A DNA stretch of 43,282 nt, taken from the NCBI GenBank assembly GCA_903944895.1, contig CAJATL010000337.1, positions 1-43,282 on the forward strand, read 5' to 3'. Positions 1-38,798 of the stretch are shown one piece after another. The first letter of the stretch is position 1. Each line of letters begins with the position of its first letter. This stretch comes from an uncultured Bacteroidota bacterium (GTDB taxonomy: Bacteria; Bacteroidota; Bacteroidia; Bacteroidales; 4484-276). The notes under the pieces are model-generated. The model saw only the letters and a program-made list of their open reading frames with translations. It searched no databases and was not told the origin of the DNA. Made by a program: the position numbers and the translations under genes.

Positions 1-3000
1 AAACCATTGTAGCTGTCGTTGGTCAGCGCATTGCCCACGTTGGCATTGCCCGTGTAACCGTTGATCGGACCGTAGCTGTCGTTGTTGGCTGCTATCGAGG
101 CTGCCGATACTTCAACCGTGATCAATGCATCATCACAATTTGTTGGATTTAAATCTTCACATATCTGGTAGGTGATATAATAAGTCCCTGCCGGAGTGGC
201 CGGATCAACGGTTACTTCACCTGTTGTGGTGTTCAAAGTCACGCCATCCAGCGGATCGAGAACTGCCGTGATGGTGACTTCAGCCGGATCGACCGGGTCG
301 CCGTTCAGCAGGTCGTTATCAAGAACATTTGAAACTGCTGTTCCGCCATTATAGCCATTAACCGGAGTTCCGCTGGCATCATCATCGTTTGCTGCAATCA
401 AAGCTGCCGATACTTCCACCGTTATCAAAGCATCATCACAATTTGTTGGATTCAGATCTTCACAGATCTGATAAGTGATATAATAAGTCCCTGCCGGAGT
501 GGCCGGATCTAAAGTTACTTCACCTGTTGTGATGTTCAAAGTCACGCCATCCAGTGGATCTAGAACTGCCGTGATGGTGACTTCAGCCGGATCGACCGGG
601 TCGCCGTTCAGCAGGTCGTTATCCAGAACATTTGAAACTGCTGTTCCGCCATCATAGCCATTAACCGGGGTACCGCTGGCATCATCATCGTTGGCTGCAA
701 TCGAAGCTGCCGATACTTCCACGGTTATCAATGCCTGGTCGCAGTTGGTGGGATTCAGGTTTTCACATATCTGGTAGGTGATATAATAAGTCCCTGCCGG
801 AGTGGCCGGATCTACAGTTACTTCACCTGTTGTGATGTTCAAGGTCACACCGTCGGCCGGGTCAAGCAATGCACTAATTGTAATTTCTATAGGAATAACT
901 GCAACACCGTTCAGCAGGTCGTTGTCCAGAACATTGTCAACAGCAATACCACCGTCATAGCCGTTAACCGGGGTGCCGCTGGCATCATCATCAACTGCCT
1001 CAATTGGTGGAGAAGCAACCTTAACTGTTACTAAAGCCTGATCGCAATTGGTTGGATTCAGTATTTCACAGATTTCATAAATGATAAAGTAGGTATTCGC
1101 CGGAGTTTTAGGATCTACGGTAACTTCACCTGTTGCGGTGTTCAAAGTCACGCCGTCGGCCTGGTCGAAAACCACTGAAACAGCAATTTCTGCAGGATTC
1201 ACCTGAAGGCCATTCAACAGGTCGTTATCCAGAACATTGTCAACTGCGATTCCACCGTCATAGCCGTTAACCGGGGTGCCGCTGGCATCATCGTCAACAG
1301 CAAGGATAGGTGCAGCTGAAACCACAACGGTTACTAAAGCATCATCACAATTTGTGGGATTCAGGATTTCACAGATTTCATAAATTATATAATAAGTATC
1401 TTCAGGAGTGCCTGGATCTACGGTTACTTGCCCTGTAATGGGATCCAGGGTTACGCCATCAAGCAGATCAACAACTACACTAAGTGTTACTTCTGCCGGA
1501 TTTACCAAAACACCGTTCAACAAGTCGTTATCCAACACATTGGAAATGGCTGTGCCGCCGACGTACCCGTTAATCGGAGTAGCGCTGGCATCATCATCGG
1601 TTGCAACAATCGGAGCAGCCGTAACTAACACGATAATTTGGGCCTGATCGCAGTTTGATGGGTTCAGGTTTTCACAGATCTGATAGATAATGTAATAGGT
1701 TCCTGCCTGAGTTGCAGGATCAACGGTTACTTCACCGGAAGAAGTATTCAAAGTCACACCGTCGGCCGGGTCGGTGACTGCACTGATGGTGACCTCAGTA
1801 GGAATAACCGGAATACCATTCAGCAGGTCGTTATCCAGAACATTATCAACAGCGGTGCCACCGATATATCCATTTACCGGAGTGCCGGTGGCATCATCGT
1901 CAACTGCAACAATGGGTGGACCTGAAACAACAACAGTAACCAGGGCCTGATCACAATTTGCAGGATTCAGATTTTCACAGATTTCATAGGTGATATAATA
2001 GGTTTCTGCCGGAGTTGCAGGAACTACGGTTACTTCGCCTGTAGAGGTATTCAAACTTACGCCATCGATAGGGTCAAGAATTGCACTGATGGTGACTTCG
2101 GCCGGATTGACCTGAATCCCGTTCAACAGGTCATTATCCAATACATTTGAAACGGCTGTACCCCCATCATGTCCGTTAACCGGAAAACCACTGGCATCAT
2201 CGTCTACAGCAACAATAGGTGCGGCTGAAACCACAACGGTAACTAAAGCATCATCACAATTTGTGGGATTCAGGATTTCACAGATTTCATAAATGATAAA
2301 ATAGGTGTCCTCAGGAGTGTCCGGATCGACGGTAACTTCACCTGTTGTGGGATTCAAAGTTACGCCATCAGGCAGGTCAACAACTACACTAAGCGCTACT
2401 TCTGCCGGATTTACCAAAACACCGTTCAGCAAATCGTTATCCAACACATTGGAAACAGCGGTGCCACCTATATAGCCGTTAACCGGAGTGCCGCTGGCAT
2501 CATCGTTAACTGCAACGATCGGTGCAGCCGAAACCTTAACTGTTACGATTGCCTGGTCACAATTTGTAGGATTCAGGTTTTCACAGATCTGATAAGTGAT
2601 ATAGTAGTTTCCTACAGGGGTTCCCGGATTAACGGTAACTTCCCCTGTCAGAAGATTCAAAGTCACGCCGTCGGCCGGGTCGCTGATTGCGGTAATCGTG
2701 ACTTCAGTCGGGATTACCGGATTACCGTTTAACTTATCATTATTTAGTACATTGGAAACGGCGGTTCCACCGATATATCCGTTAACCGGAGTGCCACTTG
2801 CATCATCGTCAACGGCAAGGATAGGTGCGGCTGAAACCACAACGGTTACTATAGCCTCATCACAGTTCGCGGGGTTCTGTATATCACAGATCTCGTAAGT
2901 GATGTTGTACGTTCCAGCCGGAGTTTTTGGATCGACGAAAACTTCTCCCGTTGATGTGTTTAATGTCACCCCATCAGGTGGATCATTAGACGCGGTAAGG

Positions 3001-4352
3001 GTCACTTGTGCCGGATCGACCGGAGTACTGTTCATCAAATCGTTGTCCAGAACATTGTCAACAGCAATACCTCCTTCATATCCGTTAACCGGAGAACCAT
3101 TGTCATTGATAGCATCAAGTCCCGATAAAACAAGAACTGTAGTTGATGCTATTGATGAATTGTTGGATAGATCAGGATCAGTTGTAGTACTTGAAACCGT
3201 TACTGTGTTAGTTAGATCCCCACTGTATGACTCATCAACTGTTGTAATAATTGTTAATACAGCATTGGCTCCTGAAGCAAGAATTCCGATATTCCAGTTT
3301 GGAGCCGTCCAGCTTCCCACTGAAGGATTGGTGCTGACAATGGTAATATTTGCAGGCAGGTTCTCGATAGTATTAACAGCCTGGGCTGATGATGTTCCAT
3401 TGTTGGTTACCGTGATTGTATAGGTTAAGTTTTGGCCAGCAAAAACCTGTTCAGGCGATGCAGATTTAACTATTTGTAAGTCGGCTTTTTCAGTAAGAGC
3501 TGCGCAACTTTGTGATTGAGCAATGTCACAATCGTTGATTTTGGCACCTGAAAAAAAGTTGAGATTGGGATCCAGGGTATTTGCACAGTAATAATTCAAG
3601 GTTGTAGAACCATTCATACTGCTAATAGTAATTTTTTGATTTGTATAAATTGAAAATACTGATCCATTCATTATGGAGCTAAAAAATTCAGCATTTCCGC
3701 TTTGAGAAAGAACTTTAACCCTAATATCAGTAACAGTGAGATAAGATGAGGAACTGATGGTAAAATTTCCTGTGCCGGATAAACCTGCAAATAAATAAGC
3801 ATTATCGAGAATCCCATAATTGGTGGATGATCCAACTCCTTCAAACAAAATATTCTGTTCTACACTCAGGCATACATCAATCATTAATAAATTGTTTACA
3901 TCGGTTTTTACAAGAAAATTTCCAGAAACATTTACTATGGCATCCTGCCAGTTAATGGTTCCCTTTTCGATTTGCATATTTCCGCCACTTCCAGGGGAAT
4001 AGCATTCATATGTGCCGTTATTTATAATGAAACTTGTACCGGCATCTTTTTGGTTCAGGCTTCTGGCTCCGCTGGCATTTCCCATTATAAGTTTACCACC
4101 GTTTTCAATTCTCAAGGTAGAATTACTTTGTAATTCAATGTCAGATACTGCTTGTGTTACAGTAAAATCATTGGTTATAATAACACTTTGAGTGCTGTTC
4201 AGAGTAGCTGGAGGAGCGCCCGATGCACCACCACTGACATTCCAGGTTGAGGAGTTATTCCAGTTACCATTGGTTTTACTTGTCCAGGTTTGTTGTCCAA
4301 TGACACTGACGATGACAAAAAATGTCGAAACGAATATTATTACTTTTTTCAT
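1..4352 (-). CDS. Giant secreted repeat adhesin, C-terminus beyond the left edge
   Basis: The frame is open from the ATG at 4352-4350 to the window edge, giving about 1450 residues with no stop. It begins with a signal peptide (MKKVIIFVSTFFVIVSVIGQ), followed by a beta-rich domain to about residue 285. This domain has G8/beta-helix-like character, with motifs such as VIITNDFTVTQ and LRIENGGKLIMGN. A DUF11 domain (about 290-405) follows, then ten 101-residue Ig/cadherin-like repeats from about residue 415. The first ~400 residues are closely related, also at DNA level, to the LruC protein at 8122-10467. The start codon sits in an ATGA overlap with the stop of the upstream gene, so translation may be coupled. 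By family it is a cell-surface or exported adhesin. The missing C-terminus would normally carry a sorting or anchoring domain. Whether it is a gliding or attachment factor cannot be told here. Confidence 0.9.
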   Translation of the reverse strand, partial: MKKVIIFVSTFFVIVSVIGQQTWTSKTNGNWNNSSTWNVSGGASGAPPATLNSTQSVIITNDFTVTQAVSDIELQSNSTLRIENGGKLIMGNASGARSLNQKDAGTSFIINNGTYECYSPGSGGNMQIEKGTINWQDAIVNVSGNFLVKTDVNNLLMIDVCLSVEQNILFEGVGSSTNYGILDNAYLFAGLSGTGNFTISSSSYLTVTDIRVKVLSQSGNAEFFSSIMNGSVFSIYTNQKITISSMNGSTTLNYYCANTLDPNLNFFSGAKINDCDIAQSQSCAALTEKADLQIVKSASPEQVFAGQNLTYTITVTNNGTSSAQAVNTIENLPANITIVSTNPSVGSWTAPNWNIGILASGANAVLTIITTVDESYSGDLTNTVTVSSTTTDPDLSNNSSIASTTVLVLSGLDAINDNGSPVNGYEGGIAVDNVLDNDLMNSTPVDPAQVTLTASNDPPDGVTLNTSTGEVFVDPKTPAGTYNITYEICDIQNPANCDEAIVTVVVSAAPILAVDDDASGTPVNGYIGGTAVSNVLNNDKLNGNPVIPTEVTITAISDPADGVTLNLLTGEVTVNPGTPVGNYYITYQICENLNPTNCDQAIVTVKVSAAPIVAVNDDASGTPVNGYIGGTAVSNVLDNDLLNGVLVNPAEVALSVVVDLPDGVTLNPTTGEVTVDPDTPEDTYFIIYEICEILNPTNCDDALVTVVVSAAPIVAVDDDASGFPVNGHDGGTAVSNVLDNDLLNGIQVNPAEVTISAILDPIDGVSLNTSTGEVTVVPATPAETYYITYEICENLNPANCDQALVTVVVSGPPIVAVDDDATGTPVNGYIGGTAVDNVLDNDLLNGIPVIPTEVTISAVTDPADGVTLNTSSGEVTVDPATQAGTYYIIYQICENLNPSNCDQAQIIVLVTAAPIVATDDDASATPINGYVGGTAISNVLDNDLLNGVLVNPAEVTLSVVVDLLDGVTLDPITGQVTVDPGTPEDTYYIIYEICEILNPTNCDDALVTVVVSAAPILAVDDDASGTPVNGYDGGIAVDNVLDNDLLNGLQVNPAEIAVSVVFDQADGVTLNTATGEVTVDPKTPANTYFIIYEICEILNPTNCDQALVTVKVASPPIEAVDDDASGTPVNGYDGGIAVDNVLDNDLLNGVAVIPIEITISALLDPADGVTLNITTGEVTVDPATPAGTYYITYQICENLNPTNCDQALITVEVSAASIAANDDDASGTPVNGYDGGTAVSNVLDNDLLNGDPVDPAEVTITAVLDPLDGVTLNITTGEVTLDPATPAGTYYITYQICEDLNPTNCDDALITVEVSAALIAANDDDASGTPVNGYNGGTAVSNVLDNDLLNGDPVDPAEVTITAVLDPLDGVTLNTTTGEVTVDPATPAGTYYITYQICEDLNPTNCDDALITVEVSAASIAANNDSYGPINGYTGNANVGNALTNDSYNG
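78..3107 (-). repeat. Ten tandem 303-bp (101-residue) in-frame repeats
   Basis: The conserved sub-motif at the TYYI-coding site recurs at 181, 484, 787, 1090, 1393, 1696, 1999, 2302, 2605 and 2908, a spacing of exactly 303 bp every time. Each unit reads roughly VDDDASGTPVNGYxGG, then VLDNDLLNG, then DGVTLNxxTGEVTVDPxTP, then YxICExLNPTNCD and ITVxVSAAPI. Each has two conserved cysteines (in ICE and NCD) that could form a disulfide within a beta-sandwich. The two most C-terminal units (181 and 484) are nearly identical in DNA, while the N-terminal unit (2908) is the most diverged. Below position ~80 the sequence changes to another, shorter unit type (NDSYGPINGYTGNANVGNA). Confidence 0.95.
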
Positions 4353-5950
4353 GACGATAATCTATTTAAATTGTTATAAAAAGATGTAAGACAATTGATT
4401 GTACCAGTTTTTTTGAATTCATATTGAGATCCAACTGAAGTCAAATCCAATATCATTTGCTGATCAGCATATTTTTCTTTACCTTTTTGTCGAATGTTGG
4501 AAAAGTAAGTTTCATGGATTATGGCTGGGCAGTAATCATATCCCTTAACCCGGGAAATACTTGCATCATCGGCTATAGCTTCAATCGGAACCTGAATTAT
4601 ATTTACCGTTTCCGATCGGTAGCTATACCTGCCACAATCATCGGTTACCAGTACTTTAATTATGCATGATGTTGGCACTGCTAACAGGGGAGCTGTAAAA
4701 GTCGTAGTAGCCCCGGTAGAATCGCTAAAAGAGCCGCCGGCCGAACTGGTCCACAGATAAGTTAACGGAGGTTTGCCATCAGATACAATTGCGTTAAGCA
4801 AAATGGTAGAGCCTGCCGGAATTGTTGAGGGAATATCGAAATTAACAATCATTTGCAGTTCATCACCTGCAAGAAGAATAAAATTAAAATATGCCCTCAT
4901 CGCAGCAATATTAGCTGGATCTGATTCTTCGTTGAGATCATGCCCCGCTTCGTACATAACCATCCCGTAATCACTGTTTCCATATGCGCGACCGTAAACA
5001 AGCACTGCTGCTTCATTAGGATTAGCCTGCGTGTGTGTTGGCTGATAAACAGCAACTTTTGTTGTTGGACGCCACGAACCAGTAGTTTTTATCGGAATAT
5101 AAATTTGTTCAGAACCATTCGTTGTGGCTCCATCAAGCTTACCCATGAATTGCATGATTGGGTCAGCATCACATGAAGGTCGATAGGTATAATTTCCTGA
5201 TCCATCGTCGTGCTTATTCCAGCGGATTAATCCGGTTGAACTCAGAAACGGCAAACCTACACCATCTGCAGATACCGGAGCTTCCAAAGCACTAGCTGCA
5301 TGACAACCCGACCAAAGGTATCCATTTTCATTTTTGATATAATTATCAAGAGCGGTTACCCAGCTATCAATCCAGTTCTGCGGATCAGCATGCGGGAGTA
5401 CATAAACATCATCACATCCTGAAAGCATGGTTGGATTACCTTTCAGGACATAGGAGGCTGCTGGAATTTCCGCATCAACGTAAAAAGTCTTAACAATATC
5501 ATCGTTCTGCGAGTCCAATATAGCTAGCGGCCAACTTGTCAAATGCGTAAAAACCGGAGCATCGAAACTGCTTGTTGTTGGACCGATTACAACGACACCT
5601 TTTGCTTTCCACGCATTAATTGCTGAGGTCACACCAGCATTTACATACTCTGCCGGAATGATAAAAGGACCTCCTTTGTAACTTGCCGAATTATAGCTGA
5701 AATCGATACCATCCTTTGATTTTGAAGGATTGATTACCCACCTCAATGCTACATTGTGGTCTTTGATAAGCGTATAAACCAAACCATAAGGTTTTAATCC
5801 TTTTGCAACACTCTGAGTTGCCTGTCCCATGTCGATAATGTAGGCGCCACTTGAAAAAGTTTCCATTGCCGCCCACATCCTGTTTGAAAAAACCAACAAG
5901 ATTAAAAGTGCAAGAAAAAGTCTCCAAAAAGTATTAAATATTGTTTTCAT
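4349..5950 (-). CDS. Secreted protein with PKD-like domain, C-terminus probably truncated
   Basis: The 533-residue product has an N-terminal signal/TM segment (about residues 8-27). A domain of about 330 residues follows that I cannot assign. It contains a GCHAAS motif (around residue 215) and YEAGHDL (around 335), which faintly recall a glutamine-amidotransferase-like fold; this is only a resemblance. Residues ~365-455 form a PKD-like beta-sandwich (PPLTYLWTSSAGG, then VTDDCGRYS). The last ~75 residues begin IEAIADDASISRVKGYDY, which aligns to the start of the 101-residue repeats next door (IEAVDDDASGTPVNGYDG), then turn into unrelated hydrophilic sequence. I infer that this gene once continued into repeats and was truncated. 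The stop TGA overlaps the ATG of the giant adhesin gene by four bases. No Shine-Dalgarno sequence or clear promoter is visible upstream. Confidence 0.8.
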   Translation of the reverse strand: MKTIFNTFWRLFLALLILLVFSNRMWAAMETFSSGAYIIDMGQATQSVAKGLKPYGLVYTLIKDHNVALRWVINPSKSKDGIDFSYNSASYKGGPFIIPAEYVNAGVTSAINAWKAKGVVVIGPTTSSFDAPVFTHLTSWPLAILDSQNDDIVKTFYVDAEIPAASYVLKGNPTMLSGCDDVYVLPHADPQNWIDSWVTALDNYIKNENGYLWSGCHAASALEAPVSADGVGLPFLSSTGLIRWNKHDDGSGNYTYRPSCDADPIMQFMGKLDGATTNGSEQIYIPIKTTGSWRPTTKVAVYQPTHTQANPNEAAVLVYGRAYGNSDYGMVMYEAGHDLNEESDPANIAAMRAYFNFILLAGDELQMIVNFDIPSTIPAGSTILLNAIVSDGKPPLTYLWTSSAGGSFSDSTGATTTFTAPLLAVPTSCIIKVLVTDDCGRYSYRSETVNIIQVPIEAIADDASISRVKGYDYCPAIIHETYFSNIRQKGKEKYADQQMILDLTSVGSQYEFKKTGTINCLTSFYNNLNRLSS

Positions 5951-8121: not shown

Positions 8122-10467
8122 CTATTTTTTCCCGGGTACCAGGTAAATCGATCCTTCGTTCCGATAACCGGGAAGATTTTTGTACCAGTCAGCATATAGT
8201 ACGCCTCCACTTTCGGCCCAAGCGCCAAACTTCAGGTACGCCCCAAGGATTTCCTGTTTTTCGATCGGATAATCGAAACTTTCATAAATGTTAATTCCCC
8301 AGGGCAGATTAGCTGAAGTCACATAAAACCTGCCTGTCGCAGGATTGGTATCGTCGTGAAGTGAACCAAACAAATTCGGGTCGGCAAGATCAGTCGGGGG
8401 AAAATAAGGCAGATGCACTTCGATGCCCCGTGTCTGGCTGACAATCAGAAAAGGATTAAAATTGCTGATGTCCAAAACATTGTTGTTGTATTTATCAGGC
8501 TCAAAAGCAATGCTTACTTCAATTGTAACCGGCGAAACATAAGGAGCGCCTGGTGATGTATTTATCCCCAAACCCGAACCGGGATGTTGTAAATGTTTAA
8601 AAGAATCATCAAAAACAATAATTGTTGGCTTCGATTGCCCTGCCTCAGTTCCGTTGGAATTGAGTGTAATGTAGCTTTCGGTAAGCTGATTACCGGTAAT
8701 TGTGAGGTCGTCCGGATCAATGGCCTCTGATAGCTGGAATCCAAATCCGTTATGAAGTGATGCGCCGATTGCTTTAATTACAAAAGTTGCATCAACCTGC
8801 ACGATGTTATTATTCAGATTCGTAAAAATCTCAAATTGATAATCAATTACGAGGTCATTAAAGTCATAATCGCCCCTGCTTGGCCAAAGATCTTCGAAGG
8901 CAAGAGTACCAAAACCCATGGCAGGATAAAGGTTGGAAATCCCGACAATAACATTTACTCCAATAGTTGCAACATCACACAAACCGAAGTCATCGCAAAC
9001 CTGATAATCAATAGTTACTGATCCAATAAAGCCAGTAACAGGCGCAAAGTTTACCTCACCCGTTGAAGGATTTACGGTAAATGTTCCCTGTGTGGTGGGA
9101 CTTGGCCCGGTGCCTGGAATAAAATTTACGGATGTCGGGATAATTGTTCCTGTTCCTGAAACATCGTTTGCCAGTATATTTATATCCACTGGCGTATTAA
9201 CTACCGTCAATGCATTGTCGTTGACGGCAACAGGACCAGTGGGCAAAATCACCGCAGTTGTGACAGTTGATGAGTTATTGGCAGCCACGGGATCAGGAGT
9301 AGTACTCGATACTGTCGCAGTATTATTCAGGACTCCACTAAACTGATCATCAGGTGCGACAACAAATGTTAATAATGCTGTTGCGCCTGATTCAAGTGTA
9401 CCAATGCTCCAGTTTGGAGAAGCCCAGGTACCTGTTGAAGGCATGATGTTGATAATCGAAATATTTGCCGGAAGGTTATCTGTAACTATTATACTCTGAG
9501 CCGGTGATGGTCCAATGTTGGTGACCGTGATCGAATAAGTAAGGTTTTGTCCAGCATAAACCGTTTCAGCCGAGGCCAGCTTTACCACTTCCAAATCAGC
9601 CTGATCGCTCAGCCCCGCACAACTTTGTGATTGAGCAATGCCACAATCGTTGATTTTGTTGCCTGAAAAAAAGTCAAGATTGGGGTCCAGGGTATTTGCA
9701 CAGTAATAATTAAGGGTTGCAGAACCATTCATACTGCTTACCGAAATCTTTTGATTTCCATAAATCGAAAACACTGATCCGTTTATTCTGGAGTTAAAAA
9801 ATTCAGCATTTCCGCTCTGAGAACCTACTTTAATTCTAATATCAGTAACTGTGAGATAAGATGACGAACTAACGGTAAAATTTCCTGTACCGGATAAACC
9901 GGCAAGCAAATAAACATTGTTGAGTGTCCCATAACTGGAGGATGATCCAGCCCCTTCAAACAACATATTCTGTGCGGTACTCAGACAAACATCCACCATC
10001 GAAATATTGTTTACATCTGTTTTAACAGTAAAATTGCCGGAAACATAAACCGTGGCATCCTGCCAGTTAATGAGGCCTTTCTCGATAAGCATATCACCTC
10101 CGCTCCCGGGCGAGTAACACTCGTAAGTACCGCTATTAATGAAAAATGAATTACCACTTGCTTGCATTGTTAATGTTCGTGCCGGATTGCTTGCATTTCC
10201 CATTTGCAATTTTCCTCCATTTTCGATTCGTAAAACGGCAGTATTATTTAAAACCAGGTTACTGGCTTGCGTAACGACAAAACCGTTGGTAATAATGACA
10301 CGTCTGTTGCTGGTTAAAGATGAAGATGGGGCACCTGTAGCTCCGCCACTGGTACTCCAGGTTGTAGCCGACGACCAAGCTCCGCTTGCTTTACTGGTCC
10401 AGGTTTGTTGCCCGATGACACTGGCCGCAAAAATAAAGGTCGATAAAAATATGATCAGTTTTTTCAT
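8122..10467 (-). CDS. Secreted DUF11/LruC-domain surface protein
   Basis: The 781-residue product has a signal peptide (MKKLIIFLSTFIFAASVIGQ). It then has the same beta-rich N-terminal domain as the giant adhesin (about 21-285) and a DUF11 domain (about 290-405, ADLEVVKLASAETVYAGQNL). A cadherin/Ig-like domain follows (about 412-508, with NDNALTVVNTPVDINILAND and a TIDYQVCDD end). The C-terminus is a LruC (DUF4842) domain (about 515-781) recognised by FEDLWPSRGDYDFNDLVIDY. In LruC proteins the acidic DYDFND motif is expected to bind calcium; that is family knowledge. The domain order suggests an exported surface protein. The gene is preceded by GAGGAGA as ribosome-binding site. It lies 57 bp downstream of the lipoprotein gene and so is probably one operon with it, ending at the hairpin near 8050. 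Confidence 0.92.
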   Translation of the reverse strand: MKKLIIFLSTFIFAASVIGQQTWTSKASGAWSSATTWSTSGGATGAPSSSLTSNRRVIITNGFVVTQASNLVLNNTAVLRIENGGKLQMGNASNPARTLTMQASGNSFFINSGTYECYSPGSGGDMLIEKGLINWQDATVYVSGNFTVKTDVNNISMVDVCLSTAQNMLFEGAGSSSSYGTLNNVYLLAGLSGTGNFTVSSSSYLTVTDIRIKVGSQSGNAEFFNSRINGSVFSIYGNQKISVSSMNGSATLNYYCANTLDPNLDFFSGNKINDCGIAQSQSCAGLSDQADLEVVKLASAETVYAGQNLTYSITVTNIGPSPAQSIIVTDNLPANISIINIMPSTGTWASPNWSIGTLESGATALLTFVVAPDDQFSGVLNNTATVSSTTPDPVAANNSSTVTTAVILPTGPVAVNDNALTVVNTPVDINILANDVSGTGTIIPTSVNFIPGTGPSPTTQGTFTVNPSTGEVNFAPVTGFIGSVTIDYQVCDDFGLCDVATIGVNVIVGISNLYPAMGFGTLAFEDLWPSRGDYDFNDLVIDYQFEIFTNLNNNIVQVDATFVIKAIGASLHNGFGFQLSEAIDPDDLTITGNQLTESYITLNSNGTEAGQSKPTIIVFDDSFKHLQHPGSGLGINTSPGAPYVSPVTIEVSIAFEPDKYNNNVLDISNFNPFLIVSQTRGIEVHLPYFPPTDLADPNLFGSLHDDTNPATGRFYVTSANLPWGINIYESFDYPIEKQEILGAYLKFGAWAESGGVLYADWYKNLPGYRNEGSIYLVPGKK

Positions 10468-11378: not shown

Positions 11379-14150
11379 TTAGTGAACTACAGCTATTTTA
11401 GTATTAAACACTTTTTCGTTTTCAACAATTCTTACCATGTAAATTCCATTTTTAATATCTGTAAGATTAATGGTGGCATTATCAGATACATTTTCTCTCA
11501 TCAAAACAACCTTACCTGTTAAATCGCATACATAGAGGCTGGCGTTTTTAACATCTGCACAAATTGTAAATGCATCTTTGGCAGGATTCGGGAATAAACT
11601 AAATTCCATTTTTCCGGATTGATCAGAAATGCCGGTAATAAGTTCATCTTTGCAGGCATTTTCGATTCTACCTGTTGTGTTATCCATCAACATACCAACA
11701 ATTTCGATATTAGTTACATCCCATTCTTCAGGGATTGTAATCGAAAAATCATAGCTGTGGGTTTCACCAGCATAAACTGTTCCTGGCAAACTACCGGCTG
11801 CACCACTAAATCCACCAAGGATTGCCCGGGCTACATCCTGGTAAACCATATCTTCGGCCGGGACAGGGTTTGGAAGCAATTCAAAACCGCCCATCGGACC
11901 CTGGCCACCACCTGAATAATAATTAGCCTGGTTCCAGGCCTGTCCGGTTCCGGTAACATTATTTTCGACAAGAACTGCATTAAACCGGTAATCGGTTACT
12001 TGTGCTACAAAATCAGAAGTAAGAGTAAAAGTTAATGCTCTCGTAGTTTCATTGTATGATTTATTTTGGAGGATAATCCCGGCAGGGGGAACATGATTAA
12101 TTCTCTGGAGGAATGCTCCTTCAAAAGTAGATGGATCAGTAACAACAGTCCTGTCAACAAGTCCCATTGGATAAGAAAATTCAATTAACGGCCCTATTCC
12201 TTCATCATACTCAACTACTACCATGGGATCCCCATTATGAACTGCGATGCCAACCCAGGTTTCAGGATATTTCATATTCATCGAATCCATATAAACAATA
12301 CCCATTACACACCAGCCACACCATGTTCCTGTTCCTTCTTCACCAACTACCATTTTTGGCGGAGCATATTCAACAATATTGAAGGAAGTATTTAATATGT
12401 CGTTAGCCGGCACTTCATCACCGGTGAGTTGAGTTTTAACCTCCATATCGTAAATTCCAGGTTCAGCTGACCATGCATCGAACAAAACCTGGACTTCTTC
12501 ACCAAGGGCAAGATCAGACACGCTCTTGGTTGAAGTATAACCATTATCATTGATGGTGCAGGTCACCGGGAAGCTAACCGTTTGTAATCCATAATTCTTT
12601 ACAGTAGCTTTTGGAATAACATTCCCTTGCAGGATGAATGGCTCCATATCAATTGAAACTACCCCGGCATTGAGGTTGATTGAGGCGCCTGTCAAATTCA
12701 AAGTATAATCTTCCCATTCACCTGCCCAAAGATTAGCACATGGATCGGGAGATGAAGGTTGCAAAAAGCATGACCCAACACGCATGATGGTAGCACCAGG
12801 TAAACCATTTCCCGGGATTGTGACGGGGATTTCGTAAAAAACACCGCCCTCGGCCATTTCAAAATCGGTTACCACCAGTTCATCAGGTGTAAATTCAATA
12901 TCCTGATTTAAATCGATCCATATACTAACAAATTGACTCTGAAAACCTACGGCTACATTAGCAACATAATCAGAACCAATCTCAGCGGTTCCTTCCAGAT
13001 TTGTGAAAACACCATAGCCATTATCACTACAACCACTATTGTAGTTTTCAATTCCTGCAAAAGCAAAGTCAGTTATACCAGTTATAAAACCACCAGCAGA
13101 AAAGCAGTCTCCGGCAGGTACACAATACCAATTGGGATCTACAACCGGGAAAGCGTGTTCAATCTTGTCGTTATCCGGATTCTCATCACCCGGAAGTAAA
13201 GTGGTAACAGAGGCTGTATAGAAACCTATAACTGCAGTCCATGGATCAAAAGCAACGGTGGTTGGTTCACCAAAAGCAATGTTTGATACTGATTTCGTAG
13301 ATGAGAAAACAATGTTTGAACCTTCATAAATCTCAAGAATCACATCAAATGATACTATTTCAGACCCATAGTTGACGATCTGAGATGAATTATTTACAAC
13401 ATCTCCTCCATGGATGAGGTTTTCAAATCCGGAAATGGAAAGTGGTGCAACATCAAGAAAAGCCTGTTCACCAAGTGTCACATTATCAATATTCCATGCG
13501 TCTATCTGGTAGCTGTCATCTTCAAATTTAAAACAGAACTGGAAATTTGCTGAACCGATATCTGGTGTATTTACTATCAATACCTCAAATGCATTGTAGA
13601 TATCACCGGTCAGCCAATTTAATTCCCAAACCTGGTTCCAGGTTGCACCACCATCACTTGTTGTCTCCACGCTTACCCAAAATCCGGTATTAAACGCATA
13701 TGGATCGATAAAATTTAAAAACGACAAACTCAGTTGGGAATATCCGCTGGTATTAATAACAGGGGAAACCAATCTTGATGTTCCCAAAAAAGAAGGGCTC
13801 CAAACCATCGACACTTCAGGTACAGTTCCTCCCGCCTTGTTGGTTTGCACTATTTTCCAATTTTCTGATCCTTCTCCCATTACCGTCCAGGCATCCAATC
13901 CCGCCGAGAAATCTTCGTAAAACACTACCTCATCGATTGACTTATGCCACCCCTTAGGAGCATTATTTTTGGTGATCGTGGTTTGAGGGTTGTCACTGTC
14001 TCTTAAATTTACACTTTGTTGTGCCATTGAGCTGATAAAAATGGTAAAGCAAAAAGCAAATAAGCTTAGTTTAAGTAAATTTGTTTGCATAGCATTCAAT
14101 TTTAATTGTTTAGAAATTTGTTTATGATGAAATGTAATTTTTGACTTCAT
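11379..14150 (-). CDS. T9SS-secreted surface protein with GEVED and Omp28 domains
   Basis: The frame encodes 923 residues, but the likely start is M21 (ATG at 14090-14088), which opens a clean signal peptide (MQTNLLKLSLFAFCFTIFIS). The far start would add 20 charged residues and overlaps the upstream frame by ATGA. Domain order is as follows: a MAM/choice-of-anchor-like domain (~75-235); a CARDB-like domain (~235-330); GEVED (~340-490, ending AGEWEDYTLNLTG); a second CARDB-like domain (~500-595); an Omp28-related thioredoxin-like domain (~600-840) with TGTWCGWCVMG; and a type A T9SS sorting domain (~850-923, FPNPAKDAF to the end). The CxxC of the Omp28 part suggests a redox or disulfide role, but the family's function is not established. 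A good terminator follows. The TPR regulator upstream is a candidate controller. Confidence 0.9.
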   Translation of the reverse strand: MKSKITFHHKQISKQLKLNAMQTNLLKLSLFAFCFTIFISSMAQQSVNLRDSDNPQTTITKNNAPKGWHKSIDEVVFYEDFSAGLDAWTVMGEGSENWKIVQTNKAGGTVPEVSMVWSPSFLGTSRLVSPVINTSGYSQLSLSFLNFIDPYAFNTGFWVSVETTSDGGATWNQVWELNWLTGDIYNAFEVLIVNTPDIGSANFQFCFKFEDDSYQIDAWNIDNVTLGEQAFLDVAPLSISGFENLIHGGDVVNNSSQIVNYGSEIVSFDVILEIYEGSNIVFSSTKSVSNIAFGEPTTVAFDPWTAVIGFYTASVTTLLPGDENPDNDKIEHAFPVVDPNWYCVPAGDCFSAGGFITGITDFAFAGIENYNSGCSDNGYGVFTNLEGTAEIGSDYVANVAVGFQSQFVSIWIDLNQDIEFTPDELVVTDFEMAEGGVFYEIPVTIPGNGLPGATIMRVGSCFLQPSSPDPCANLWAGEWEDYTLNLTGASINLNAGVVSIDMEPFILQGNVIPKATVKNYGLQTVSFPVTCTINDNGYTSTKSVSDLALGEEVQVLFDAWSAEPGIYDMEVKTQLTGDEVPANDILNTSFNIVEYAPPKMVVGEEGTGTWCGWCVMGIVYMDSMNMKYPETWVGIAVHNGDPMVVVEYDEGIGPLIEFSYPMGLVDRTVVTDPSTFEGAFLQRINHVPPAGIILQNKSYNETTRALTFTLTSDFVAQVTDYRFNAVLVENNVTGTGQAWNQANYYSGGGQGPMGGFELLPNPVPAEDMVYQDVARAILGGFSGAAGSLPGTVYAGETHSYDFSITIPEEWDVTNIEIVGMLMDNTTGRIENACKDELITGISDQSGKMEFSLFPNPAKDAFTICADVKNASLYVCDLTGKVVLMRENVSDNATINLTDIKNGIYMVRIVENEKVFNTKIAVVH

Positions 14151-29432: not shown

Positions 29433-30977
29433 CTATCTGATTACTGTTACAGTGCCCATCTTTTCGAGATTCTGGCCTTGTGGTGTCCGGTATTTTAGCT
29501 GGTAAACATAGCTGTCGGTTGGAACAATTTCGCCTTTAAACTTGCCATCCCAACCATCACCGGACGGATCTTCGGTTATGAAAATCAATTGACCCCATTT
29601 ATTAAAAATGGCAAGGCTGTAACCGTCAATGTCAATGAAGGCAAGCATAGGTTTAAATTTTTCATTCGGAGGGCGCCCGGGCGTAAATGCGTTGGGCAGA
29701 TTAGCGCGGGTTTCCTGTTTTATCTCGATTTCGTTGGAAATACTAAAGTCTTTAAACGTTTCAAATCCATTATCACCATCATTTTCGTAGGCAACGATGT
29801 AATAATTAAAAACACCTTCAGAAGTTGAAAAAGCTGAAACTTCATCTAAATAGGTTGTTTCTGATGGAAACAAGGGATTATCAATTCCATTGTCGGTGCC
29901 ATTGACTTTTCGGAATATCTTGTAAAAATCAATGCCGGAATTTCCAAAATCCCAGCCTTCGTAATGATTCCAGCTCAGGTCGTTTGCACTTCCGGTAATA
30001 CCCGGAATACCTGACAAATGTATTGTTCTGGCAGTATTTTCCGAAGCCCGTCTATCTACGCCACAACTGTCGCAAACCCTGATCTGATAATAATAACTTT
30101 GGGCATTAAAATCAGCGTCGGTATCAATAAATACAGTTGAAGGTTTGAAAGTGCCCGTCTGGATATTTTCGCCAATAGTATCAAAAGTCAGTCCGTCAGT
30201 TGACCTGAGAATTTTAAATTTTGAAATTGGGGCATCGTTCCCAACGGTCCACTCAAGTTTAACATGGTCGTTATTTTCCACCGTGGCATAGCGCAGGTAA
30301 ACCCAGTCGGGCTGCAAAGGCGCGTAGGATGTTATGGATTGTTTGCAGGAGGATGAAGATTTTGTTCCATCGCTGTTTACTGCCCTGATCATAAAAGTAT
30401 ATTCGACTCCAGGAGTGGGGTTTTCGTAAACAAAGCTTGTGGTAGTAGTTGATCCGACTTCTGTAAAAAGACCTGTTTCACCGGTTGTTGAAGCAAAAAC
30501 CTTGTATGCTCCAGGAGCTGGAGGCATGTTGATATAGCCTGTCCAACGTAGCGTAAAAGTATTGAGGCACTTATCCAATATTGGCTTTGATAAGAGAATG
30601 GTTTTGAGTGAATCAGTATTCTGAAGGATACTGCCATCACCAAAATCATTTATTGCCTGAACCGTGTATGTAAATGAACTATCACATGGATTTTTACTGT
30701 CATCGGTATAGTGGTCGTTATTAATTCCAATAATTGGCCCAAGGGTATCCTTGTAAGGAATATAATAATTTGATGTTTTTTCCCATCCACTGCGATGAAT
30801 CACATACCTGACCGTGATGCCGTCATTTTTAGGAATCCATGTTATGAACGCTTTATTATTGATAATGCTGATTGTATCAACTTCGACAGGAGTTGGTATT
30901 TGACCAAAAGAGAAATTTTCCTTACAACAAATAATCGCAATTACAAAAACAACAATCAATAATCTTTTCAGAATCAT
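29433..30977 (-). CDS. T9SS type B secreted fibronectin-like protein
   Basis: The 514-residue product has a signal peptide (about 1-26, ending FSFGQ) and several fibronectin type III-like segments (for example KAFITWIPKNDGITVRYVIH and HVKLEWTVGNDAPISKFKIL). Its C-terminal ~90 residues are the gliding-motility-associated type B sorting domain (LPNAFTPGRPPNEKFKP, FNKWGQLIF, DGWDGKFKG, YVYQLKY). Proteins of this class are exported by T9SS and attached to the cell surface. The gene starts 7 bp after the M16 homologue gene ends, so it is likely co-transcribed with the M16 pair. Confidence 0.9.
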   Translation of the reverse strand: MILKRLLIVVFVIAIICCKENFSFGQIPTPVEVDTISIINNKAFITWIPKNDGITVRYVIHRSGWEKTSNYYIPYKDTLGPIIGINNDHYTDDSKNPCDSSFTYTVQAINDFGDGSILQNTDSLKTILLSKPILDKCLNTFTLRWTGYINMPPAPGAYKVFASTTGETGLFTEVGSTTTTSFVYENPTPGVEYTFMIRAVNSDGTKSSSSCKQSITSYAPLQPDWVYLRYATVENNDHVKLEWTVGNDAPISKFKILRSTDGLTFDTIGENIQTGTFKPSTVFIDTDADFNAQSYYYQIRVCDSCGVDRRASENTARTIHLSGIPGITGSANDLSWNHYEGWDFGNSGIDFYKIFRKVNGTDNGIDNPLFPSETTYLDEVSAFSTSEGVFNYYIVAYENDGDNGFETFKDFSISNEIEIKQETRANLPNAFTPGRPPNEKFKPMLAFIDIDGYSLAIFNKWGQLIFITEDPSGDGWDGKFKGEIVPTDSYVYQLKYRTPQGQNLEKMGTVTVIR

Positions 30978-35596: not shown

Positions 35597-38500
35597 TTAT
35601 TGACTAAAAACAATTTTTTGGATAATTATCTTTCCGCTTTCCAACCGGATTTTACAAAAATAAATCCCCGATAAAAGCTGAGGAACTTCAATAACGATGG
35701 GTAAATCCTGAGAAACGACCGGATAATCGGCGATTTTTCGGCCATCCGGAGCAATCAAAGAAACCTGTTTTGCCCGGTTGTTGCCGGCAAGTTCGATATA
35801 AAACTGATTTTTAGCGGGGTTTGGATAAACCCTGACGGCGGTTTCATTTTCATCAATTCCGGCGGAGGTAGCCCACTGGTTTTTTAATTGTTCGATTTGC
35901 GAAACCGGAATTTCTTTATCCCAGAGTTTAACTTCATCCACGCTTCCGCGAAGGGCGTAAAGTGTTTCCACATCGTCCATCCGGCCAATGGTCAAGGGTT
36001 TGGTTGAAGATTGAATAGTTCCGGTGAAAGGTTTGAAGGTGTCAAGGGTTCCATCAACATACAATTCCATCGAATAGCCGGTATAAAGCGCAGTTACATG
36101 GTAATATCGGTTCAGCTCGATTGGCGAAGAACCATCAAGGTCCAAAACACCGGTATTTGTTTTTACCGTCCATCGAAACCGGCCTTCGGGTGTGATCGAA
36201 AGTTTGTACCGCTGCTGCCATGAACCATGGGAAATGATAAATCGTTCGGTGTTGAGTTGTTCGCATTTTACCCAGCAACTCACACTTATCGCATCGCCAA
36301 AGTTGAGGGCGCTGTTGTTTTCGGTAAAGATGATGTTTTGTCCAGCGGTAAATCGGTATGCCAGAGAGGGCATACCGCGGGCATCCTCTGTTTTTGATAC
36401 TCCGGAAACGGTGGCATGAAAATTATCAGCAACAGCATTCAAGTTATTGAAATCAAAAGAGTACCAGATGAGCGGGGTTTGTGCCGCGAAACTTGTATCT
36501 TTTACAAGTGCACCTGCCGTAACTGTTGTCGAAAGCAAGTCCTGGTTTGTCACCGTTAAGGTGATGGTTCCAACCTGCGGATTGCCAGGAGCCTGCCAGG
36601 TTACCGTATTCCCGGTATTTTGGTTTAAAACGCCTGAAGTTGCGCTCCACAAATATTGAAGGATTTCACCCTGCGCAGGAACTACCGAAGCCGTGAAAGT
36701 ATTATTCTCGTTAATTGCTGTGTATTTTGTTGCTGCATCAATTCCATTTACAACCGGAGGAACAGCAATGTGCGCCACAACCTGCAAATTAAGCGTGTCA
36801 ACGGCAATCTGGCCATTAAAACTGATTTTACATTTAAGCACCAATTGCTCAGGAAGCGAAGGTGCAATCAGTGTTGCCTGCGACTGGTTCTGGCCGGGAA
36901 CAAGGACATCATCCATGAACCACTCAAACTGCACATCATCACCCGGATTTACATTTCCAGGCTCACAATAAGCCGTAAACCCTGTACTTACCAGCAAAGG
37001 ATTTTTATCGGTCGAAAGCGCCTTAATACGCAGGTTTTCGGTATAATCGTACTGGTAATGATAATCGAGCACATCATCACCGGCATAAAGACGGCCATTG
37101 TAGTTTTCAGGAATCAGCCCCGACTGAAACAGCCTGATCAATCTTACCTCTCCTGCCGGGATTGAAAGTTGAAAAGAACCGGAAACACCAGTTTGTAAGA
37201 CGTTTTCAGTTAAAGATTCGTAAACCCCGAAATTGCCTTGCGGCAGATTAACCTGAACCTGTTTACTTTCCTGTGTCGGATTAAAATAGAGATACGAAAC
37301 GGGGGAATCGTCTCCGTAAAGGTCGGTTTTATTGAGGTCGATCTGAAGAATTTCGGGAATGTTGGTGGCTTTTACCACTGCTGCAAGATAGCCAACACCT
37401 GAGCCACTGTAAAGCGACAAATTGGTTGCCGCCCATCCACCTCCGATGGCGTCACCGGTGGCAAAAGGAGTTTTTCCCTGTAAAACTTCTTTCATCGCTT
37501 CGTGCGGAATGCAGGCCGTTGGGTCATAGGCCGAAGCCCAGGCATAAGAATCCTGATGATCCTGCGGAAGCGCGTTCCAATAAAACAACCTGCTGGCATT
37601 TGTCAAATTAAGAATCCATTTGGCGATGGCGCGGGCGTAACGTTTGTCATATTTGGGAAGTGGCGCCAACGCAGCAGCCTGGTGGAAGCCATTCATCACA
37701 AAAGCATAATCATCGCCTCCATCGTTGGCTTCACCGATCAATCCCGAAACATCATAACCTCCCCAGTTGCCAACAATAGCCCCCCAACCTCTGAGGTCGC
37801 CACGGTCGAAACACCAGTCGAGCAGTTTTTGCACTGGATAACTTGTTTCTTCAACAGCATTCATATGGGCAGCAACCAGCGTTCCGTAAGCTAATTGCAG
37901 TTCATACGATGGATTTGTCTCAAAACTTCCCAAAAAATCCATCGCTAACTGGGCGCCTTCGAGATATTTCCTACTCCCAGTTTCGAGATATGCATTGTAA
38001 AGCAGCCAGGCTATGCTTCCGGCGGCTTCGGGTTCCGGAACGCCACTGGTTAACGGAAGTCCGGTGTTAAGGTCAAATGCCCGGTAATTCATGTAAGGCG
38101 CCGTCCAGGGCGTTGTATTTCCTCCAAGCTGGTTTACACAATAAAGCCACCGGTCGGCAATGGTTGTAAACTGGCTGCTGAATTCCGGCGCAGCATTGGG
38201 GTACAACGCTTTTAACTGATAAAAATAAACGTTGGGCATCACATCGTACCACCAGTCGTCGCCGGAAGTTGTCGAATAACTGTTAAGATAGACATCCTGA
38301 CCATTTTTAAGATTAAAGAAATCTTTGCTCATGGCCACCCAATTCAGGCCGTTTTGGTTGCTTTTATCAATACCCGCAAATGATGCACCAACAATAGCAG
38401 GTAAAATATTGATGGCTTCGGCCTGGTTGAGATGATTTTCGGCGCCAACGTATGAATCGAGAAAAAGTGGAATATTATCAGGATAATTATACTCACCGGC

Positions 38501-38716
38501 AGTTCCAAGTCGCGAAAGAGGCAGGTATTGTCCTGATTTCTGAAGATCAAAAACGAAGTTGTCGTAATCCACGGTTACCACGTTCCAGTCTCTGATCTGA
38601 AGCGGCGTTGGCAAATCCGGCATAAGATCAATCCTTGAAATGCTTAATTGCCCCGGCTGCGCGAAAGATTGCAACAAAAAAATGCAAAACGAGATTAAAA
38701 GTAGAATTTGTTTCAT
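35597..38716 (-). CDS. Secreted T9SS protein with alpha/alpha-barrel-like, PKD-like and LamG domains
   Basis: The product is 1039 residues from the better start (ATG 38716-38714, MKQILLLISFCIFLLQSFAQ signal peptide); an in-frame extension to 38770 lacks signal character. The N-terminal ~500 residues are helical and Trp/Tyr-rich (DWWYDVMPNVYFYQLKALYP, then EPEAAGSIAWLLYNAYLETG), suggesting a six-hairpin glycosidase-like barrel. I cannot name the family. A short beta domain (~495-540), Ig/PKD-like domains (~570-750) and a LamG/concanavalin-like domain (~765-950) follow. The last ~75 residues are a T9SS type A sorting domain (VYPNPAKNQFYIELAG). As the last gene of the polysaccharide locus, it is likely a surface glycan hydrolase or binder. 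Confidence 0.85.
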   Translation of the reverse strand: MKQILLLISFCIFLLQSFAQPGQLSISRIDLMPDLPTPLQIRDWNVVTVDYDNFVFDLQKSGQYLPLSRLGTAGEYNYPDNIPLFLDSYVGAENHLNQAEAINILPAIVGASFAGIDKSNQNGLNWVAMSKDFFNLKNGQDVYLNSYSTTSGDDWWYDVMPNVYFYQLKALYPNAAPEFSSQFTTIADRWLYCVNQLGGNTTPWTAPYMNYRAFDLNTGLPLTSGVPEPEAAGSIAWLLYNAYLETGSRKYLEGAQLAMDFLGSFETNPSYELQLAYGTLVAAHMNAVEETSYPVQKLLDWCFDRGDLRGWGAIVGNWGGYDVSGLIGEANDGGDDYAFVMNGFHQAAALAPLPKYDKRYARAIAKWILNLTNASRLFYWNALPQDHQDSYAWASAYDPTACIPHEAMKEVLQGKTPFATGDAIGGGWAATNLSLYSGSGVGYLAAVVKATNIPEILQIDLNKTDLYGDDSPVSYLYFNPTQESKQVQVNLPQGNFGVYESLTENVLQTGVSGSFQLSIPAGEVRLIRLFQSGLIPENYNGRLYAGDDVLDYHYQYDYTENLRIKALSTDKNPLLVSTGFTAYCEPGNVNPGDDVQFEWFMDDVLVPGQNQSQATLIAPSLPEQLVLKCKISFNGQIAVDTLNLQVVAHIAVPPVVNGIDAATKYTAINENNTFTASVVPAQGEILQYLWSATSGVLNQNTGNTVTWQAPGNPQVGTITLTVTNQDLLSTTVTAGALVKDTSFAAQTPLIWYSFDFNNLNAVADNFHATVSGVSKTEDARGMPSLAYRFTAGQNIIFTENNSALNFGDAISVSCWVKCEQLNTERFIISHGSWQQRYKLSITPEGRFRWTVKTNTGVLDLDGSSPIELNRYYHVTALYTGYSMELYVDGTLDTFKPFTGTIQSSTKPLTIGRMDDVETLYALRGSVDEVKLWDKEIPVSQIEQLKNQWATSAGIDENETAVRVYPNPAKNQFYIELAGNNRAKQVSLIAPDGRKIADYPVVSQDLPIVIEVPQLLSGIYFCKIRLESGKIIIQKIVFSQ

Positions 38717-38798
38717 TTTAGAAAAGTTTTTAGAGAAGTCCGGAATTATCATAAATTCATTTTTAATCATTGTAACTAATTGATTTTATACCCAACAG

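Follow-up and report, generated by a model that had tools for sequence, protein, structure and literature searches.

A tandem array of 101-residue Ig-like domains in an uncultured Bacteroidota bacterium, and a proposed three-unit super-period that is not established

We analysed a 43,282-nt stretch of DNA (the window) from an uncultured Bacteroidota bacterium. The window is the complete contig C337 of a 7.17-Mb genome in 424 contigs. At its beginning, on the reverse strand, an incomplete open reading frame (positions 3..4352, 1450 aa so far) encodes a predicted large secreted surface protein with a tandem array of 101-aa units. The frame is open throughout and runs past base 1. The N-terminus was judged by eye to be a Sec-type signal peptide, and a domain scan identified two parts before the array: an unclassified N-terminal stretch of ~290 aa and a DUF11 domain (residues 291–403, positions 3144..3482, reverse strand, E = 8.7e-27) that immediately precedes it.

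Tandem Repeats Finder reported a repeat at 103–3094 with a period of 303 bp, 9.9 copies, 75% matches and 0% indels. The units are numbered here in protein order, in a register moved by 18 bp from that of the initial annotation (78–3107), and all lie on the reverse strand: unit 1 at 2823..3125, unit 2 at 2520..2822, unit 3 at 2217..2519, unit 4 at 1914..2216, unit 5 at 1611..1913, unit 6 at 1308..1610, unit 7 at 1005..1307, unit 8 at 702..1004, unit 9 at 399..701 and unit 10 at 96..398. Unit 11 (3..95, reverse strand) is represented by its initial 31 aa, is of a different subtype and is cut at the contig end. The NG(Y/H)xG motif recurs from unit 1 to unit 10 at a successive spacing of exactly 303 bp. 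The initial annotation had described ten units, all of 101 codons and free of indels; the 303-bp step indeed holds throughout and nine of the ten units are gap-free, but the alignment places a two-codon gap in the first strand of unit 1, the most diverged. The shared variants described there are present, namely VIP(T/I)E in units 2, 5 and 8, PEDTY with VDLxDGVTL in units 3 and 6, and QVNPAE with DQALVTV in units 4 and 7. Units 9 and 10 are almost identical, as had been noted (93.1% in DNA and 96% in protein), and they alone among neighbouring units reach 96%, the mean protein identity of neighbours being 75%. The units other than this pair differ at ~27% of sites, and the mean unit identity is ~73% in DNA.

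Because the interruption of the array coincides with the contig end, the cut was made by the assembly and not by biology; with a partial unit 11 and an array that continues past the contig end, ten is not the true copy number. The order and sharing of units could likewise be partly an artefact, if a short-read metagenomic assembly had collapsed or chimerised similar units of one array or of several strains. Contig ends also break the gene within the array in the sister genome G001, the second of the two genomes of the genus compared, where the contig stops partway through a unit, as well as in the related loci L071, L077 and L078, and the genome itself is fragmented (424 contigs). We nevertheless consider an artefact very unlikely, since the ~27% of sites that distinguish the units apart from 9 and 10 should make most joins unambiguous with ordinary reads, and the frame stays open throughout the array.

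The initial annotation had proposed a hidden super-period of three units (909 bp), produced by duplication of three-repeat blocks. This proposal was examined by unit-order permutation, third codon positions, tract scoring and constrained trees. For all ten units, the mean DNA identities at lags 1, 2, 3 and 4 are 74.7%, 72.6%, 74.4% and 71.0%, respectively, and the excess at lag 3 was not significant (p = 0.15, unit-order permutation). The mod-3 statistic for the ten window units gave p = 0.35, and the mod-3 excess was gone after units 6 and 10 were removed (p = 0.44). In a paralogue on contig C398, the same three-unit phase was not significant (p = 0.15). VIP(T/I)E occurs in three of the ten units, a number for which 4 of the 120 possible placements have a period-three spacing; the two-state I/N site of this motif is scattered in the C398 paralogue with no clear period.

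Third codon positions gave the relative ages of the unit pairs. Units 3 and 6 match at 76 of the 101 positions, whereas pairs 2/5 and 4/7 match at 55 and 54 (Fisher p = 4e-4), against a background of 55 ± 5 with a maximum of 65. A block duplication predicts the same age for 2/5, 3/6 and 4/7; as only 3/6 is raised, the three pairs were not copied as one block. A log-odds scan for tracts found two main ones, both far above the highest score in the column-shuffled null (12.1). The first, shared by units 3 and 6 (score 24.5), covers 265 bp at 2191..2455 and is 89.8% identical to its counterpart 909 bp along the gene, which lies in unit 6 at 1282..1546 (both on the reverse strand). The second relates units 8.5–10 to units 9.5–11 over 440 bp (score 55.4). 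Shorter patches were also detected at lags 1, 2 and 5, and high-identity tracts of unit length were confined to 3/6 and 9/10. The DNA tree of the units supported 3/6 at 97%, 9/10 at 100% and 8-9-10 at 78%. Of the clustering expected from the initial annotation, the 3/6 pair was thus recovered, while 4/7 was absent and 2/5/8 did not form a clade. In a higher-order repeat, several consecutive pairs at the same lag have equally raised identity; here, 3/6 is the one lag-3 pair with a strong rise. The 909-bp period is thus not supported for the array as a whole: the lag-3 excess is marginal, vanishes without unit 6 and traces to the single 3/6 tract. Duplication of three-repeat blocks is contradicted both by the length of this tract (265 bp, not 909) and by the younger age of 3/6 relative to 2/5 and 4/7. 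These analyses demonstrate the repeat structure, the tract lengths and the relative ages at third codon positions, and the evidence for a super-period in the window array is not convincing.

Some results weigh on the other side. The lag-3 excess reached nominal significance without unit 10 (p = 0.017) and among units 1–8 (p = 0.014), and the lag-3 signal of the window and the C398 paralogue combined was borderline (p = 0.05). An approximately unbiased test did not reject the groupings of the initial annotation (p = 0.13–0.32; all three groups jointly, p = 0.13), because the signal in 303 bp is limited. A block of three units might have been duplicated long ago (2-3-4 to 5-6-7, then 8), with later mutation and patchy gene conversion masking the event except at 3/6 and, weakly, 5/8. 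Within units 2–8, lag 3 is the highest lag (77.8% in DNA, 79.2% in protein; p = 0.006–0.02), the protein tree joins units 2, 5 and 8 at 56% support, nearest-neighbour offsets in the C398 paralogue are multiples of three in 6 of 9 cases, and block duplication of several units does occur in relatives. Still, such an event appears unlikely: third codon positions contradict the equal ages that it predicts (p = 4e-4), pair 4/7 is at background with unit 7 closer to unit 3, the lag-3 signal depends on unit 6, and neither the C398 paralogue (p = 0.15) nor the full set of ten window units (mod-3 p = 0.35) gave significance.

Two further proposals of the initial annotation were borne out. A recent single-unit duplication toward the C-terminus is visible in units 9 and 10, where the 440-bp tract has 92% identity and the bootstrap support is 100. 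Recombination among units is indicated by mosaic tracts and by a test of the pairwise homoplasy index type (p = 0.02–0.03). The closest unit changes from one third of a unit to another; in unit 7, the first third is closest to unit 8 and the last third to unit 3 and its partner, unit 6. We favour, with good though not full confidence, an account in which the protein has a stalk of ~12 immunoglobulin (Ig)-like units secreted by the type IX secretion system (T9SS), and the array grew mostly by single-unit recombination without a true three-unit period. The array would have grown by recombination between units, mostly one at a time. Its history would comprise an older set of units with a DNA identity of ~72%, a single unit-length copying event between units 3 and 6, the recent duplication that gave units 9 and 10, and smaller gene-conversion patches. 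The semblance of a three-unit period would reflect the 3/6 copy and a chance spacing of older shared variants.

The equal length of the units would follow from common descent, in frame and within one fold, with no special selection on spacing. The initial annotation had taken the strict length to imply selection on geometry or, alternatively, continuing homogenisation through recombination. Strong selection for a fixed stalk pitch could hold every unit at exactly 101 aa, the length of window units 2–10 and of 7 of the 8 steps in the C398 paralogue. However, among 53 loci with this domain, unit length ranges over 94–122 aa, often mixed inside one protein, and is uniform mainly where the units are close copies, as in L096 (mostly 100 aa), L069 (102 aa) and L076 (97 aa). 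Strict length thus accompanies close copying, and selection on spacing seems quite improbable.

The continuation of the array gene was sought elsewhere in the genome. One end of contig C158 lies inside a unit; a full 101-aa unit comes next, then a Big_9 domain, additional sequence and a type A tail of the T9SS. Its type A sorting domain (E = 4e-10) is also found on the C398 paralogue. The window closes with the first half of a unit and C158 supplies a second half; each half had one full match in the genome, and the same pairing of halves was seen by eye inside single units of the relatives L067, L068 and L077. In the tree, the complete unit of C158 groups with units 9 and 10 (93% support). A point against this assignment is that no overlap was found between the ends of C158 and of the window contig, and the C337–C158 junction is not covered by sequence. 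Very probably, C158 holds the rest of the array gene, which would give ~12 units and roughly 2470 aa in all. Judging from the sorting domain, the protein is probably exported by the T9SS and displayed on the surface.

The AlphaFold2 model of a single unit (predicted local distance difference test (pLDDT) score 97.2) is a seven-stranded Ig-like sandwich, the fold that defines cadherin-like bacterial Ig domains; a tandem pair was modelled at a pLDDT of 96. The best Foldseek matches were the long Rib domain Rib-Long (6s5w, E = 1.2e-5) and cadherin repeats, with structural Z scores of 8–9 to cadherin repeats and 8.1 to a long Rib domain over 85–95 residues. A sequence search of solved structures returned a long Rib domain as the sole match (E = 0.0014). 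Individual units score below the Pfam gathering cut-offs: against Big_9 (PF17963, single-unit cut-off 23.6), unit 10 reached 20.6 bits and unit 3 had no match, and against RibLong (PF18957, cut-off 27), unit 3 reached 14.8 bits. The whole-protein sum for RibLong was 43 bits, yet no single stretch passed the cut-off. Cys80 and Cys88 (C-x7-C), located on the last two strands, are invariant in 58 of 58 aligned units and may form a disulfide. Most likely, the array serves as the stalk of a secreted surface protein, a rod made up of some twelve cadherin-like Ig domains, each 101 aa long. An adhesive role of the protein is putative; the domain scan identified no known adhesive domain in it.

The window array belongs to a known kind and is unremarkable within it. 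It resembles tandem cadherin-like and bacterial Ig domains (Big_9 PF17963, Cadherin_4/5, RibLong PF18957) in its Ig-like sandwich, tandem units of ~100 residues and conserved N-D motifs, and differs from Big_9 and RibLong in the sub-threshold Pfam scores and the invariant C-x7-C pair. As in periscope proteins (Whelan et al., 2021; PMC8201768), repeated folded domains would form a rod on the bacterial surface and copies are exchanged by recombination; highly identical neighbours, which together with strain-to-strain variation in copy number typify periscope proteins, are absent from the window array (~73% mean DNA identity) except for units 9 and 10. Fibrillar adhesin-like proteins of Bacteroidota with Por_Secre_tail (Monzon et al., 2021; PMC8286594) share the long repeated stalk and, via C158, the T9SS tail, but no known adhesive domain was recognised in the window protein. 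Growth of repeats by several domains at once (Bjorklund et al., 2006; PMC1553488), the process proposed in the initial annotation, is seen in relatives of the window array and not convincingly in the window array itself.

Duplication of multi-unit blocks, as a general idea, does hold in other arrays of this domain family. Among named sequences, the nearest relatives come from metagenome-assembled Bacteroidota, two of which bear the label Bacteroidales. In Sphingobacterium faecale (L083), a clean six-unit block is repeated, with units 2–7 and 8–13 at 78–91% identity (lag-6 p < 2e-4), and Sphingobacterium sp. SGG-5 (L085) is a weaker case, also at lag 6. Several Flavobacterium arrays have a two-unit period (67–82% at lag 2 versus 50–68% at lag 1). 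Four of the Flavobacterium arrays (L105, L106, L094 and L084) are strictly ABAB: neighbouring core units have 37–39% residue identity, and units two apart 86–99% on average. In the tree, the A and B types are largely separate across species. For F. cupreum (L098), the best lag is three (p = 0.008), and the unit positions probably correspond to an AAB order. The Sphingobacterium, Flavobacterium and L098 arrays serve as positive controls for these tests, in which the window array falls short. Separately, in the Bacteroidales metagenome contig L071, units of 101 aa and 97 aa alternate and the array is cut at the contig end.

Protein repeats can grow by several domains at once, most commonly two, and seven in nebulin (PMC1553488). 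Divergence of neighbouring domains is believed to reduce misfolding, and periscope proteins are an exception to this rule (PMC8201768). We found nothing specific in the literature on arrays of this sort in Bacteroidota. Higher-order arrays may be a recurrent form in this family, in which the ABAB, AAB or six-unit order keeps neighbours unlike (37–39% in the four Flavobacterium arrays) and so avoids misfolding onto each other, while alternate units (86–99%) could still recombine to change stalk length; the window array would be the same stalk without such order. We offer this reading tentatively, as possible but on balance doubtful. The related Flavobacterium and Sphingobacterium arrays present a strong, testable higher-order arrangement, and the alternating ones are a better lead than the window array. 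Such arrangements bear on a question left open by periscope proteins, namely how stalks keep recombining without misfolding of neighbours. For the window, the analysis corrects an attractive but weak super-period claim and locates an assembly cut through the array.

The paralogue on contig C398 (L004, 458–11386) is a 3642-aa protein in which sixteen DUF7507 repeats of 106 aa precede nine units of the domain found in the window array (101 aa each, the last 99). Its C-terminal region has 72% identity with that of C158. In a unit tree that includes C398 and C158, the units cluster mostly by gene, a pattern suggestive of homogenisation or renewed amplification once the genes had separated. A neighbouring gene in the window (8122..10467, reverse strand) encodes a 781-aa protein. 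Its N-terminal 408 residues match the start of the array protein at 68% identity, and a Big_9 and an LruC/DUF4842 domain come after them. This N-terminus, shared by the array gene (3144–4352) and the gene at 8122–10467 ahead of unlike C-terminal parts, suggests an exchange of modules. Should C158 be the continuation, the array protein would be modular, with one end in common with this neighbour and the array and tail in common with the C398 paralogue.

A 533-aa gene at 4349–5950 overlaps the array gene by 4 bp, and its first part looks, by eye, like the N-terminal portion of an array protein of 3091 aa from another genome (L066). At the end of this upstream gene, a degenerate unit was looked for and only 21 residues resembled a unit start (E = 0.1). 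The gene may be a truncated relative of the array proteins. Further probable T9SS substrates are encoded in the window at 35597–38770, 29433–30977 and 11379–14150, with Por_Secre_tail, CHU_C and laminin-G-like domains among them.

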